Shown here: positions 2,614-11,663 of the stretch, one piece after another
Numbering within the stretch: position 1 is the stretch's first letter
Layout: every line of letters starts with the position of its first letter
Assembly: GCA_902790905.1 (NCBI GenBank)
Contig: CADATO010000004.1
Location: 1 to 64,000 of the forward strand
Direction: 5' to 3'
Source: an uncultured Eubacteriales bacterium
GTDB lineage: Bacteria > Bacillota > Clostridia > Peptostreptococcales > Anaerovoracaceae
Length of the DNA: 64,000 bases
Position numbers and translations under genes: made by a program
The notes under the pieces: model-generated
The model's database searches: none
Seen by the model: only the letters and a program-made list of their open reading frames with translations
Told to the model about the DNA's origin: nothing

Positions 2614-2991
2614 TCAAATTCTATGGGCGTGTATCCACGCGAGGATATCCTCATATCCGGCGCTGCCACCCGCTGCGGCAAGCCCCAACGCAGCCACTTC
2701 ATCGTTCTCCGCTTCGATCCGGATGCCATTCAGTTCAAGGAAAGATAACATGACATATATGCCGATTCTTTTATTGCCGTCCACAAAGGCGTGATTTGCA
2801 ATCAGCGAAAAGCCGAGACGGGCTGCTTTTTCTTCCTTGGTGGGATACAGTTCCGCTCCGTCAAAAGTGGCATATGCATTCTCTATGGCTGATTCCAGCA
2901 GTGCTTCATCACGTATCCCAACATCACCGCCGGTCGCCTCTGCCATTAGTTGATGCAGCAGCAGTACTTTATCTTTGCCTATCTTGATCAT
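2614..2991 (-). CDS. doc: Doc-type toxin (Fic/Doc family)
   Basis: The 125-residue product has the Doc length and the Fic-fold active-site motif HAFVDGNKR at residues 67-75, with catalytic His67. Known Doc toxins phosphorylate elongation factor Tu and stop translation. The start overlaps the stop of the upstream antitoxin gene by four bases (ATGA), the usual translational coupling in such modules. Nothing appears missing, so the toxin is probably functional. The target here is inferred only from the family. Confidence 0.9.
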   Translation of the reverse strand: MIKIGKDKVLLLHQLMAEATGGDVGIRDEALLESAIENAYATFDGAELYPTKEEKAARLGFSLIANHAFVDGNKRIGIYVMLSFLELNGIRIEAENDEVAALGLAAAGGSAGYEDILAWIHAHRI

Positions 2992-3233
2992 TTTGCCAGC
3001 TCCTGAAATGCCGGCAGATACTTTTTCAGAATCCGCCGCGCCACGATATCGATTTTTTCATCGTCGGATAGTTCGTAATAGGCCAGGTTGTCTTCGATAT
3101 CAATCAGTACGTACTTAGGTCTGTTGTTTTTGAAAATCACAATATCTCCCAGCCGGTCAGCGAGTCTGGCAACAGAAGAGAAATTCTGGTTTGCCTGTGT
3201 CATGGAGACGATTTTGTCTGTGTTGATGAGCAT
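2988..3233 (-). CDS. phd: Phd/YefM-type antitoxin
   Basis: This 81-residue protein starts MLINTDKIVSMTQANQNFSS, the N-terminal DNA-binding fold of Phd/YefM antitoxins. The fold is followed by the typical strand IVIFKNNRPKYVLIDIED. The acidic, helical C-terminus is where Doc is normally bound and neutralised. It is the first gene of a two-gene operon with doc. It probably represses its own promoter through the palindrome at 3256-3272. Confidence 0.88.
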   Translation of the reverse strand: MLINTDKIVSMTQANQNFSSVARLADRLGDIVIFKNNRPKYVLIDIEDNLAYYELSDDEKIDIVARRILKKYLPAFQELAK

Positions 3234-3255
3234 TGTTCACCTCAAAAAATAGGTT

Positions 3256-3300
3256 AAATATATCCTATATTTATTATACTAGACCGATGAGTTCTGTCAA
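3256..3300 (-). promoter_or_regulatory. phd-doc promoter with palindromic operator
   Basis: Read on the minus strand there is a perfect TTGACA (3295-3300), a 16-bp spacer and TATAAT (3273-3278). Immediately downstream lies the palindrome AAATATA-N3-TATATTT (3256-3272). It covers the likely transcription start and suits autorepression by the antitoxin. Confidence 0.8.
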
Positions 3301-3419
3301 TTAAACAGATCGGCAGTGAGGCAGCTGATGGGGGTGCCAGCCCGAAATGCGTCTGTTCGGGCTCGAAAGATGCCGGCTCATTTTGTACACTGGTGCTGAC
3401 AAGGAGAGGAGGAATCGCT

Positions 3420-3500
3420 ATGAAACAGCACAAATTCTGGGCATGGGCTACGGTCTGTTGTTTTCTGATGACCATGTGTACAGGCTACCGGAAGAAATAG
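3420..3500 (+). CDS. 26-residue hydrophobic micropeptide
   Basis: An ATG at 3420 follows a strong AGGAGG site (3406-3411) and encodes MKQHKFWAWATVCCFLMTMC followed by TGYRKK and a stop. The shape is basic end, one short membrane-spanning stretch rich in aromatic residues and Cys, and basic end. A terminator follows 40 bp later, so this looks like a complete transcription unit. From memory, similar MKxHKFWAW...TGY peptides occur in other Firmicutes, but I cannot verify that here. The function is unknown. The octamer GGAATCGC (3411-3418) lies between the ribosome site and the ATG. Confidence 0.6.
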   Translation: MKQHKFWAWATVCCFLMTMCTGYRKK

Positions 3501-3539
3501 AGACAGGCATGCATATTGAGCCTGTGCAGACCATGCGGA

Positions 3540-3567
3540 AAGAGCTTTCTCCGGGAGGCTCTTTTTT
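3540..3567 (+). terminator. Intrinsic terminator after the micropeptide gene
   Basis: The stem AGAGC...GCTCT, with a CTCC/GGAG inner pairing, is followed directly by TTTTTT. Confidence 0.75.
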
Positions 3568-3633
3568 GATGGTTGTGGTAGAATAGGTAAATAGGATAAG
3601 ATGCACTCGTTACAGTGATCACAGGAGTAAGAT

Positions 3634-3999
3634 ATGAGCGCAAAGATCATCCGGATGATCCCGCCGGAAGAACGCCCCTATGAATGGGCAAGAAAAGAGA
3701 TGGAAAAGTATTTTCCGAACCCGGATCGCTTCCGGCTCACCAACCTGGATAAACGGACAGACGAACCGAATACGCAGGTGTCACTATTCCGGAAAGGCGC
3801 CGAAGACCCCGTGATCCTTCGGGTTTACTGGTTCGATACAAATTCCGTCAAGTACAGCATCATTGTGAACTACGATGAACTGTACGCCGAGCATCCGGTG
3901 CTGGTCGACCAGCTGTTTCGCAACGGCATAGCCGCGTACGAGGCATTTGAAAAAGCAGACCCGCACTATGTGAACAGCATTCTGTACGGCAGGCAGTAG
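3634..3999 (+). CDS. Hypothetical protein, 121 residues
   Basis: The product is soluble, slightly charged and without signal peptide or membrane segment. It begins MSAKIIRMIPPEERPYEWAR and contains a predicted beta-rich middle (NTQVSLFRKGAEDPVILRVY). I do not recognise a family. The ATG follows AGGAGTAAGAT, a plausible ribosome site, and codon use matches the neighbours. It stands alone between the micropeptide terminator and a decayed membrane-protein gene. Downstream, at 4032-4047, is a small palindrome GTTAGC-N4-GCTAAC, and the octamer occurs at 4013-4020. Confidence 0.65.
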   Translation: MSAKIIRMIPPEERPYEWARKEMEKYFPNPDRFRLTNLDKRTDEPNTQVSLFRKGAEDPVILRVYWFDTNSVKYSIIVNYDELYAEHPVLVDQLFRNGIAAYEAFEKADPHYVNSILYGRQ

Positions 4000-4099
4000 G
4001 CATCAGCAAAAGGGAATCGCGCTACCATTTGGTTAGCAAACGCTAACTATAAGCGGTGCTGCCTTGTAAAGCGGCACTACCTGAATGAGAGAATCCAAT

Positions 4100-4437
4100 A
4101 TGCTTTTAACCATTTTTCTGTCAATCGTTTTCTGCGCATCGATGGCCATGATGCTGTTCTCGTGCGTTGCGTTTATTCAGGACAATAAGCTTTTTGCGTC
4201 CGCCCCGGAGGAAGCGAAAGCTTCTGGCAGATGTTCGTGATCCTCGAAATCATGAATCTGATCGACCGGTTTCTGATTGACGGGTACTGGGTCGGACACA
4301 CAAACGCCTGGGTGATTCCCGGGACCGAGGATTTGCGGCCTTATATCACAACGGCGGATAAGATCAAAAAATGGGTTTTCGGAACGGTAGGGATGGCGAT
4401 TATTGCCGCTGTGCTGTCTGGCTTCCTGTGGCGCTGA
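4100..4437 (+). pseudogene. Decayed small membrane-protein gene with internal deletion
   Basis: Two reading frames make up one likely ancestral protein. The first (4100-4240) reads MLLTIFLSIVFCASMAMMLF and on to KLFASAPEEAKA before running out of frame. The second contains FWQMFVILEIMNLIDRFLID, with a possible ATG at 4231, and ends with a membrane helix, VFGTVGMAIIAAVLSGFLW. The joint lies at about 4219-4222 (GCGAAAGC/TTCTGG). From memory, intact relatives carry further transmembrane residues between EEAKA and FWQMF. An internal deletion with loss of frame is the simplest reading. A terminator follows at 4456. Confidence 0.6.
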
Positions 4438-4455
4438 TTGCTTCACACGGGTCAG

Positions 4456-4476
4456 AAGAGCCTGCGGGCTCTTTTT
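4456..4476 (+). terminator. Intrinsic terminator
   Basis: AAGAGCC and GGCTCTT pair around a 4-nt loop and run into a T tract. It closes the decayed membrane-protein gene. Confidence 0.75.
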
Positions 4477-4558
4477 GTTTGCTCTTGAGGCGACGCGGCT
4501 GTTTGGAGTATGATGAGAGAAACTGGACTGCAGAGGATACGCGCGGGGAGGTACACGC

Positions 4559-8915: not shown

Positions 8916-11663
8916 ATGAAAAACAGAAAACTGGCACTGGCACTGACATTGTTCATGCTGCTTTCCCTGTTCTCCGTAGGTACGTTTGGCGTCTTTGCCG
9001 ATGAAACGGCAGAGGGCATCGAACAGACTCCGGCGGAGACGGCTGTGGAAGAAACCACCGGCGAAGCGGAAGGTACAGGCGATGCAGTGACTGCCGCACC
9101 GGAAGAGATGCCTGGTGAAGAAGCGCCGGCGCAGGACAGCACCGAACCGGAGGAGGAAACCCTGCAACTTGCTGAAGAAGCCGCGGCGGTGCCTGCGGAA
9201 GAGGAAGAGACTGAAGCAGGGCAGACACAGGAGGGAAATCCGCCTGCCACGGTGTCTACCGTTGACAGCCGGGCGGAGGGGATCACGCTCAATCTGTTCG
9301 ATTACGATCTGACCGATGACAGCAATGCCGGCGACGCATGGAACAATTCCCCGACCAGCCAGTTTGTAAACTACTGGCCGATGGCCGGCATCAATGCTGA
9401 CCACAATCTGAAATTCTTCGGGCACGGCGGCGATCCTGCTCTGGAAGGCAATACCAACAGATATACCGGAACGGCGACAGCGCGGCAGGGCATCGTGCAG
9501 CCGACGCTCGGCGAATCCGGATACCCGGTCATGACCGAGTTCGGCGGACAGGACCTCAGCTATCTGTTTGCTCCGGAAAGCAGCGATTACAAGACGGCTT
9601 ACACGGACGTCAACCATCTGTTCCAGCTCGACGGGCAGGGGAACTATGTGTTCGACAGCGACAGTAATTATGCCTATTATGACCCAGCGCAGGGAAGCGG
9701 CGGCGATTACAAGGTGTATGAAGGCACCTATAACGTAAAAGAGACAAGCTACGACGGCTCGGACACGGGCAACACAATGCCGGTCGGGTATTTCCCCTTT
9801 GATGACTGGGACGAAACCAAGCAGGACGTCGGACCGGCGATTGATGCTGTGGCACGCGGTGAGAAACCGTACAACCACCAGCACGGTCTGAGCATGGAGT
9901 GTGATTTCTATATTCCGGCATCCGGCAAGGTCGACGGAGATGACCTGGTGTTCCACTTCAGCGGCGACGATGACGCCTGGCTGTTTATCGATGATGTGCT
10001 GGTCATGGATATCGGCGGTCTGCATCTGCCGACCGGCGGTGACGTCAACTTCACGACCGGCGAAGTGACGACAGACGATGCTGTGGATGTTGTTCCGTAT
10101 GACAGCAGCACAGTCATTCCGCAGACGATTGGTACGCAGAACACGCTGTCCGAGATCTTCGCGGCAGCCGGCAAGGAGTGGGATCCCTCCAAACCGCATC
10201 ATATGAAGTTCTTCTATCTGGAGCGCGGCGGCTGCTACTCCAACCTGGCGCTTGCGACGAACATCTGGAAAGCGACCGGCATGCGTTTCAGCGTGGAGAA
10301 GGTCTGGGCGGACGAAGAAGACCATTCCGGAGATGAAGTGATCGTCGATCTGTACGCGGATGGAGAACTCGTCGAAGGAAAAACGCTGACTCTGAACGAC
10401 AACAATAACTGGAAAGATACATTCAATAATCTGCCGATGTACAACGAGGATGGCGAAGCCATCACCTACACGGTCAAGGAGGAGAACGTGGACGACTACA
10501 TCGCCTCTTACGAGAAGGGCGGAGAAGTCGTCAAGGAGAAGACCTACTGGGTACCGATTGACGCTGCTGACCTGGAAGACGGGGAGACCTATGCGATCAC
10601 CGCGCCGGACTGGCAGAGCGGGAATACGCCGCGGATCTTTGAAGGAACAGACGGCCTCATCGAGACAGTCGATACCGTGATCGAAGACCAGGCGGTCCCG
10701 GGCGAGAACCAGCAGCTCGTCGATGACGAGGGCTCGTATGAGCAGGTGCTCAAGAATGAGCCTTCCGAAGCGCAGCTGTTCACGGCGACCAAACTGGACA
10801 GCGACGGTCAGCAGAGCGGCACCTTCTGGCAGCTCAGCAACGGCAGCGGCAATCTGGCGCTGGTTGGACATCAGGAATGGCAGTGGTGGCAGCGGACCAT
10901 CACTTACTGGTATACGATGACCAGTAAGAACGGCTGGGTCCAGGAGGAAATGAGCAATTACCACAATGCTCTCACGATCGAGCCGGAAGACGACGGCAAA
11001 GCCATGATCTATGCGGCGCAGTACATCGATAATCCGCTGGTCAGACAGCCGGACCAGTATCTGTATCTCAATAACGGCACCCATCCGGATCCGACGGATC
11101 ACAGAGAATGGAGCGCGCACGTGACGTTCTGGAAACAGGTGACGGTCGAAGAGACGACACCGCTTCCGGACGACTGGACAATCACCAACTCGCCGGCGGG
11201 CGACCTGACGGTGACAAAGACGGTCAAGGGAACGGATGCGCAGAAGAAGCAGGCGTTCACCTTTGTCGTCAAACTGGACGATACGGAGATCAGCGGCGAG
11301 TTCGGCGATATGACATTCAGCAACGGCATCGCGATGTTCACCCTGAAAGACGGGGAGAGCATCACGGCGGAGGATCTGCCGGCCGGTGTCGGGTATGAAG
11401 TGATCGAGGCGGCCGGACCCGACTATACAGCGGAGATCACCGGTGACAAGGGAACCATCGAAGCGAAAACCGATGCGGAAGCTGCTTTCACGAACACGTT
11501 CAAAGAAGAGCAGAAGGCAGCGCCTGTTTCTCCGGCGGGCACATCTGCACCTGACAGCAAAACACAGACCGGGGATCCCGCAACGATGGCCCTGGTCCTG
11601 CTGGCACTGGTGATCAGCGGCAGCCTGATGGCTCTGATGGCAAAGCGCAGCAGACAGCACTAA
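8916..11663 (+). CDS. Secreted, wall- or membrane-anchored adhesin (fibro-slime, Cna-B and pilin-like domains)
   Basis: The 915-residue protein has a signal peptide (1 to about 28, ending GVFA). An acidic Thr/Glu/Pro-rich stalk runs from about 29 to 115. A fibro-slime/PA14-like domain follows, with the hallmark DDDAWLFIDDVLVMDIGGLH at about 350-369. A Cna-B-like domain (FSVEKVWADE) starts near 460, and a pilin-like isopeptide domain (GDLTVTKTVKGTDAQKKQAF) starts near 762. The end reads KTQTGD, a 21-residue hydrophobic helix and KRSRQH, a sortase-signal layout without the LPxTG proline. The protein probably acts on the cell surface in adhesion or sugar binding. No sortase gene is nearby. RBS GAAGGGGGATCG precedes the ATG. 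It has its own promoter and terminator and lies in the longest octamer-free stretch (7991-14650). Confidence 0.85.
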   Translation: MKNRKLALALTLFMLLSLFSVGTFGVFADETAEGIEQTPAETAVEETTGEAEGTGDAVTAAPEEMPGEEAPAQDSTEPEEETLQLAEEAAAVPAEEEETEAGQTQEGNPPATVSTVDSRAEGITLNLFDYDLTDDSNAGDAWNNSPTSQFVNYWPMAGINADHNLKFFGHGGDPALEGNTNRYTGTATARQGIVQPTLGESGYPVMTEFGGQDLSYLFAPESSDYKTAYTDVNHLFQLDGQGNYVFDSDSNYAYYDPAQGSGGDYKVYEGTYNVKETSYDGSDTGNTMPVGYFPFDDWDETKQDVGPAIDAVARGEKPYNHQHGLSMECDFYIPASGKVDGDDLVFHFSGDDDAWLFIDDVLVMDIGGLHLPTGGDVNFTTGEVTTDDAVDVVPYDSSTVIPQTIGTQNTLSEIFAAAGKEWDPSKPHHMKFFYLERGGCYSNLALATNIWKATGMRFSVEKVWADEEDHSGDEVIVDLYADGELVEGKTLTLNDNNNWKDTFNNLPMYNEDGEAITYTVKEENVDDYIASYEKGGEVVKEKTYWVPIDAADLEDGETYAITAPDWQSGNTPRIFEGTDGLIETVDTVIEDQAVPGENQQLVDDEGSYEQVLKNEPSEAQLFTATKLDSDGQQSGTFWQLSNGSGNLALVGHQEWQWWQRTITYWYTMTSKNGWVQEEMSNYHNALTIEPEDDGKAMIYAAQYIDNPLVRQPDQYLYLNNGTHPDPTDHREWSAHVTFWKQVTVEETTPLPDDWTITNSPAGDLTVTKTVKGTDAQKKQAFTFVVKLDDTEISGEFGDMTFSNGIAMFTLKDGESITAEDLPAGVGYEVIEAAGPDYTAEITGDKGTIEAKTDAEAAFTNTFKEEQKAAPVSPAGTSAPDSKTQTGDPATMALVLLALVISGSLMALMAKRSRQH

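Follow-up and report, generated by a model that had tools for sequence, protein, structure and literature searches.

The window (the whole stretch of DNA that was analyzed, 64,000 nt) encodes a 26-amino-acid peptide at 3420..3500 on the + strand. From the peptide's conservation and the selection on its codons, we conclude that this is a genuine, conserved, and easily missed micropeptide gene, with a predicted membrane product. We lean towards the view that the peptide is a small accessory subunit, similar to KdpF, of a metal-efflux module that comprises a PacL-like (DUF6110) protein and a P1B6 ATPase. This view is based on conservation, coding selection, operon linkage, co-occurrence across genomes, and a form of the peptide that is fused to a metallo-beta-lactamase-fold (MBL) protein. 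The link to DUF6110/P1B6 operons and the MBL-tail form go beyond the original prediction, which gave no function.

The gene was called from its open reading frame and its homologues. It has a Shine-Dalgarno sequence (AGGAGG at 3407..3412, + strand), a 7-nt spacer, and an ATG start codon, and its product is MKQHKFWAWATVCCFLMTMCTGYRKK (the coordinates of the reading frame include the stop codon). A single membrane helix, similar to Pfam's DUF6219, is predicted: the 18-residue core, which is flanked by basic residues on both sides, has a mean Kyte-Doolittle hydropathy of 1.27. Thus the elements that were originally described (ribosome site, ATG, hydrophobic stretch with basic ends, and stop) are all present at 3407-3500. 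Just three open reading frames of 20-35 amino acids in the window have a comparable ribosome site, and this is the single hydrophobic one. In 20 order-1 Markov simulations of the window, the average number of such hydrophobic reading frames was 0.3.

The original prediction also pointed to an octamer in the gap between the ribosome site and the start codon. A copy of this octamer (GGAATCGC/GAATCGCT) does lie at 3412..3419 on the + strand, but the first G of GAATCGCT is also the last G of AGGAGG, and the word is found genome-wide and is not specific to this gene. There are 22 copies of GAATCGCT in the window (4.5 expected), and GGAATCGC occurs 854 times (421 + 433) in the 2.0-Mb genome, versus 15 times for the word read backwards. 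The octamer is a highly iterated genome-wide word, presumably akin to Chi- or HIP-type words, and its presence before the micropeptide's start is probably incidental.

Downstream of the gene, folding revealed a hairpin that resembles an intrinsic terminator (about 3537..3567, + strand), with 13 pairs, a 4-nt loop, and a U tract in the 3' arm. It begins 36 nt past the stop codon. The minimum free energy of 3496-3580 is -34.6 kcal/mol (z = -3.9), and none of 200 shuffled sequences folded as well. A simple pattern scan for terminators did not flag this hairpin. The closest co-directional neighbor, on the 3' side, is an unrelated 121-residue open reading frame that is 133 nt away. On the other side, a Phd/YefM antitoxin and Doc/Fic toxin pair (2614-3233, - strand) is divergent from the micropeptide gene and is served by a perfect -35/-10 promoter at 3300-3273 on the - strand. 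On the + strand, no sigma-70-like promoter was detected from 3023 to 4484 in a pattern scan. None of the adjoining genes are metal-related, and no Rfam family of meaning was found near the gene. The proposal that the gene forms its own transcription unit is supported only at its 3' end, as the + strand scan gave no promoter. It fits the window's copy, with its hairpin and its distance to the next co-directional gene, but not most of the homologues, which sit in operons.

We ran a model (A1) built from four relatives against 349 genomes from the family of the window's organism. At E ≤ 0.1, 89 genomes had a match; we kept the 54 with E ≤ 1e-4 and dropped the other 35. Further homologues are found elsewhere in the phylum. 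One copy (L004/L117; G017:C20:2806-2880; E = 3.7e-4) is broken by an in-frame TGA at aromatic position 7, which is either a degraded gene or a sequencing error. We fetched this locus but excluded it from the counts. Two other weak matches that were dropped are G512 (1.1e-3), which sits in a 302-residue frame, and G574, which is the one that we examined among the weak matches in frames of about 830 residues. The G574 frame is, by its motif, presumably an acyl-CoA synthetase. The set of loci whose neighborhoods were analyzed (n = 60) includes four loci from other families and the disrupted copy, which leaves 59 intact copies.

The homologues are under strong purifying selection. The length is exactly 26 amino acids in 51 of the 59 intact copies. 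Among these 51, His4, Thr21, and Gly22 are invariant, Ala8 is kept in 50, and Cys14 and Trp9 are each kept in 42. The third codon position is the most variable (entropies of 0.79, 0.58, and 1.39 for positions 1-3; n = 51). The pooled pN/pS is 0.21 (256 pairs with 70-97 percent identity), and one pair of sister loci (L072/L073) differs by 12 synonymous changes and no nonsynonymous ones. Conservation in relatives had been named beforehand as the test of the original prediction, with a lack of conservation as the outcome that would count against it, and conservation is what the search found. The sequence, length, frame, and ribosome site are kept in many relatives, which supports the claim that the gene encodes a membrane micropeptide and would be overlooked by gene callers.

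A single scan of a collection of contigs found 490 stretches that encode a relative of the peptide, and we retained the best 80. These are the top matches to the pattern MKxH[KR]F[WF]A[WIF], so proportions among them are not a census. The records are titled Lachnospiraceae, Oscillospiraceae, Butyrivibrio, Oribacterium, Intestinimonas, Clostridium, and others; they are mainly metagenome-assembled genomes, and many are from the gut or the rumen. Isolates with the operon include Intestinimonas butyriciproducens An565 (L203) and Clostridium sp. Marseille-P3244 (L193). A search of plasmids gave no match, and a search of phages gave one weak match (50 percent identity, E = 0.05). Four short sequence strings from the peptide were not found in the literature that we searched.

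At E ≤ 1, the peptide's only matches in Pfam are DUF6219 (PF19727) and DUF420 (E = 0.12). The window's peptide aligns to positions 1-25 of the 69-position DUF6219 model with 20.1 bits (E = 5.9e-4), which does not reach the gathering cutoff of 27 bits. The N-terminal stretch HK[FW]WA..TGY is common to both, and DUF6219 has the same N-terminal motif as the peptide (MKxHKFWA...TGY). Among 19 aligned homologues, 16 match DUF6219 at E ≤ 0.01, and two relatives, of 26 and 39 amino acids, exceed the cutoff (with scores of 28.0 and 33.5 bits). Pfam assigns no function to this family, and its name did not appear in the literature searched. Used on its own, the DUF6219 model finds the peptide poorly: it had matches in 13 of 291 genomes of the class at E ≤ 0.01, none of them over the cutoff. 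Of nine such matches that we inspected, three had the peptide on the strand that was read, and three more (L018, L020, and L019) were later found to have it on the other strand.

The peptide is often encoded beside a DUF6110 protein and an ATPase. We counted genes as adjacent if a DUF6110 gene and/or an ATPase of about 700 residues, on the same strand, started at most 500 nt downstream or ended at most 300 nt upstream. By this definition, 39 of the 59 intact copies adjoin DUF6110 and/or the ATPase: the peptide is the first gene in 24 loci and the last in 15. In 12 of the 15 "last" copies, its reading frame begins before the ATPase gene has ended, with an overlap of 4 or 14 nt. The other 20 copies, including the window's, are detached. 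Pfam and NCBIfam name the neighbors as DUF6110 (E = 9.5e-36) and a heavy-metal P-type ATPase. The ATPase from the window's organism belongs to the heavy-metal branch (TIGR01525, 473 bits). Two features are invariant in all 15 of the ATPases that were aligned: SCALK at 343-347, and His674 and Asn675 in the last membrane helix. According to the available text of PMC9374683, an HN motif in this helix is a mark of the P1B6 subfamily, and the genes of DUF6110 proteins, which resemble PacL, typically accompany those of P1B6 ATPases.

The association extends to genomes in which the genes are unlinked. Within the family, DUF6110 is present in 50 of the 54 genomes with the peptide versus 18 of the 295 genomes without it, and the ATPase is present in 49 of 54 versus 22 of 295. 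At the genus level, 20 of 21 genera with the peptide have DUF6110, versus 6 of 71 others. (These comparisons and their p-values ignore descent; the pattern does repeat across genera and families.) In a sample of 249 genomes from the phylum, with the identical draw used for both searches, the same 4 genomes had the peptide and DUF6110, including the window's, and the other 245 had neither. In one of these four (G170), the peptide and DUF6110 are on different contigs. DUF6110 is also present in 17 of the 20 genomes with a detached peptide, among them the window's genome (G000), in which contig C27 carries the DUF6110-ATPase operon and C4 carries the peptide gene. A search of the C27 operon stretch with our model found no peptide gene.

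There are exceptions in both directions. DUF6110 is absent from 4 of the 54 genomes with the peptide, and no peptide was detectable in 22 of 71 genomes with the ATPase or in 18 of 68 with DUF6110. Also, we found no relative of the peptide in 20 stretches around operons of this kind, although some of these stretches are cut by contig ends. Because these operon stretches and 22 of the 71 ATPase genomes show no peptide, we consider it to be an accessory, and not a fixed part, of the module.

Among the best 80 of the 490 loci, the peptide is first in 18, last in 13, elsewhere in 18, and fused to an MBL protein in 31. (Eleven of the 80 repeat loci from our first set; without them, 15 are first, 10 are last, 13 are elsewhere, and 31 are fused, of 69. 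L229 and L230 were excluded from these counts; L230 encodes a 26-residue orphan peptide.) At L192, L195, and L216, an extra gene of about 140 residues lies between the peptide and DUF6110 and resembles just the N-terminal portion of the ATPase. At L112 (genome G461), an open frame that contains MAKWVCTVCGYV lies 5 nt upstream of the peptide; by its motif, this frame resembles rubredoxin. Other neighbors at single operon loci include Fur, FeoA, a ZIP transporter, HMA proteins, and AraC-type regulators, and the regulators differ between loci. Of 5 riboswitch matches in 12 operon loci, none is of a type known to sense a metal cation. At L208, where there is a DUF6110-ATPase operon, a fluoride riboswitch (9903-9981, - strand) lies past the ATPase gene at a distance of about 1.3 kb.

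In the 31 fused loci (L160, L170, L173, L190, L196, and 26 others), the peptide is the in-frame C-terminal tail of an MBL-fold protein. (L184 was initially included because of the length of its frame and was later taken out.) Where the start could be placed, the fused proteins have 311-376 amino acids. In one of them, Pfam finds Lactamase_B and, weakly, DUF6219. The predicted structure of this same protein (pLDDT 89) has the MBL fold followed by a low-confidence link and a C-terminal helix at 289-315, which is the micropeptide part. The nearest structures to its soluble domain are the MBL-fold proteins 2p4z and 3h3e (Tm1679), with query TM-scores of 0.79 and 0.73; these chains have 275 and 256 residues, and the fused protein adds the C-terminal helix. 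The fused copies keep the H, FFAW, and TG residues. Because the MBL domain has no hydrophobic N-terminus, the N-terminal side of the helix is probably cytoplasmic in the fused form, and from this we infer that the free peptide is oriented N-in/C-out. An SD-like sequence precedes the internal ATG in 25 of 31 fused copies, versus 43 of 50 free copies, so free peptide might also be made from the fused gene; a caveat is that the Lys/Arg codons give an SD-like sequence anyway. Among the best 80 of 490 loci, DUF6110 is found in 25 of 31 genomes with fused copies and in 8 of 13 with detached copies (33 of 44 together; the other 11 of 44 have none). An apparent gap of 850-1100 nt upstream of the rumen copies had suggested a large non-coding RNA, which we rejected, since this stretch is taken up by the MBL gene, read in the same frame as the peptide. 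In two Oribacterium records, a c-di-GMP-I riboswitch lies soon downstream of the MBL-peptide gene (L170, 5533-5606; L171, 6374-6447).

MgtR, sarcolipin, and other micropeptides with a single helix are known to tune membrane transporters, and the likeness here is of kind only. KdpF, as described in the available part of PMC3618439, has about 30 amino acids and a single helix, and it is encoded with a P-type ATPase (KdpFABC). Unlike our peptide, it is part of a K+ uptake pump with further subunits, and no match to KdpF was found in Pfam at E ≤ 1. PacL1 and PacL-like proteins (DUF1490/DUF6110) are also single-helix partners encoded in metal-ATPase operons, and PacL1 stabilizes the pump CtpC, as far as the available texts go (PMC9374683, PMC13043812; CtpC in the former). 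But DUF6110 is a separate neighboring gene here, and our peptide has neither the Glu/Ala repeat region nor a metal-binding tail, so it would be a third component. It matches neither DUF6110 nor DUF1490 in Pfam. In the literature searched, these two papers are the only ones that name DUF6110; in their available text, "small protein" is absent from both and "micropeptide" is absent from PMC13043812. The peptide component and its link to DUF6110/P1B6 operons thus appear to be new, as they are not described in the literature we searched, while a micropeptide partner for a membrane pump is of a known kind.

If the peptide is an accessory subunit, then it would insert in the membrane N-in/C-out. His4 and Ala8-Trp9 on the cytoplasmic side and Thr21-Gly22-Tyr23 on the outer side would form a docking surface, with which the peptide would pack against one or both of two partners: the membrane region of the P1B6 ATPase and the single helix of DUF6110. 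It would then stabilize or tune the pump, which presumably exports a metal, in the way that KdpF probably acts on the Kdp ATPase. The window's organism encodes the peptide apart from the operon, and there it would act in trans. The ATPase may have room for such a partner. In 15 of 15 of these P1B6 ATPases, there is no hydrophobic first helix: at the MA position, the mean best hydropathy is 0.33 and 7-10 of the 29 residues in the segment are charged, versus a hydropathy of 1.88 at the first helix of a CPC-type P1B ATPase from the same genome. The predicted structure of the P1B6 ATPase, which matches P1B and Kdp (KdpB) structures, has a helix at the MA position (86-110) with moderate confidence (mean pLDDT 75). 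It is possible that the peptide or DUF6110 packs into this vacant place.

The MBL fusion counts against the accessory-subunit view, as in this form the helix acts for, or is attached to, a partner other than the pump. The peptide could instead be a generic docking or tail-anchor helix for a shared membrane partner, either free or on the MBL hydrolase, with the linkage to P1B6 ATPases reflecting co-regulation under metal stress. The fusions themselves (31 of the best 80 of 490 loci), the retention of the H, FFAW, and TG residues in them, and the detached copies (20 of 59) would all fit. But a generic anchor does not need an exact length, invariant His4, Thr21, and Gly22, or co-occurrence with one ATPase system when unlinked, so we think this is unlikely. 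We are more doubtful that the peptide, in the membrane or at its surface, binds metal or haem through His4, Cys14, and the flanking aromatic residues and hands it to the pump or to the MBL enzyme. His4 is invariant and Cys14 is present in 42 of 51 homologues, some loci have Fur, FeoA, a ZIP transporter, or HMA proteins nearby, and there is a weak likeness to a model of the b-type cytochrome of Ni/Fe-hydrogenase (E = 0.026). However, Cys14 is replaced in 9 of 51, and the cytochrome match scores 14 bits against a cutoff of 442.

The peptide's size, single hydrophobic helix, strong ribosome site, and own hairpin, along with the adjoining divergent Phd/Doc pair, are also reminiscent of a type I toxin. 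This is very improbable given that most homologues are co-directional in ATPase operons (with 12 of the 15 "last" copies overlapping the ATPase gene), that others are fused to an MBL protein, that the sequence is strictly conserved, and that no meaningful Rfam family lies near the gene. A leader peptide, for which translation and not the product would matter, might be expected directly upstream of DUF6110 and the ATPase, as in 24 of the 59 copies. But 15 follow the ATPase, 20 stand apart, and it is the amino acids rather than the nucleotides that are conserved. This idea is largely refuted by the gene's position, and we give it hardly any credence.

Of these readings, the accessory-subunit view is the best supported. 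A more speculative form of it, which we think is unlikely, is that bacterial PacL-like/P1B6 "effluxosomes" contain the peptide as a third, previously undescribed subunit. Whether encoded in cis, in trans, or as an MBL tail, it would fill or dock at the vacant MA site, and it would tether an MBL hydrolase to the pump.

The authors who described PacL called the P1B6 ATPases poorly characterized (PMC9374683, available text). A conserved micropeptide that accompanies them would be a new handle on the make-up of the module and on which metal is exported. The same 26-residue gene is seen in three states: as a member of an operon, as an unlinked gene, and as a fused tail. It is also a test case for the annotation of small proteins in gut and rumen bacteria.
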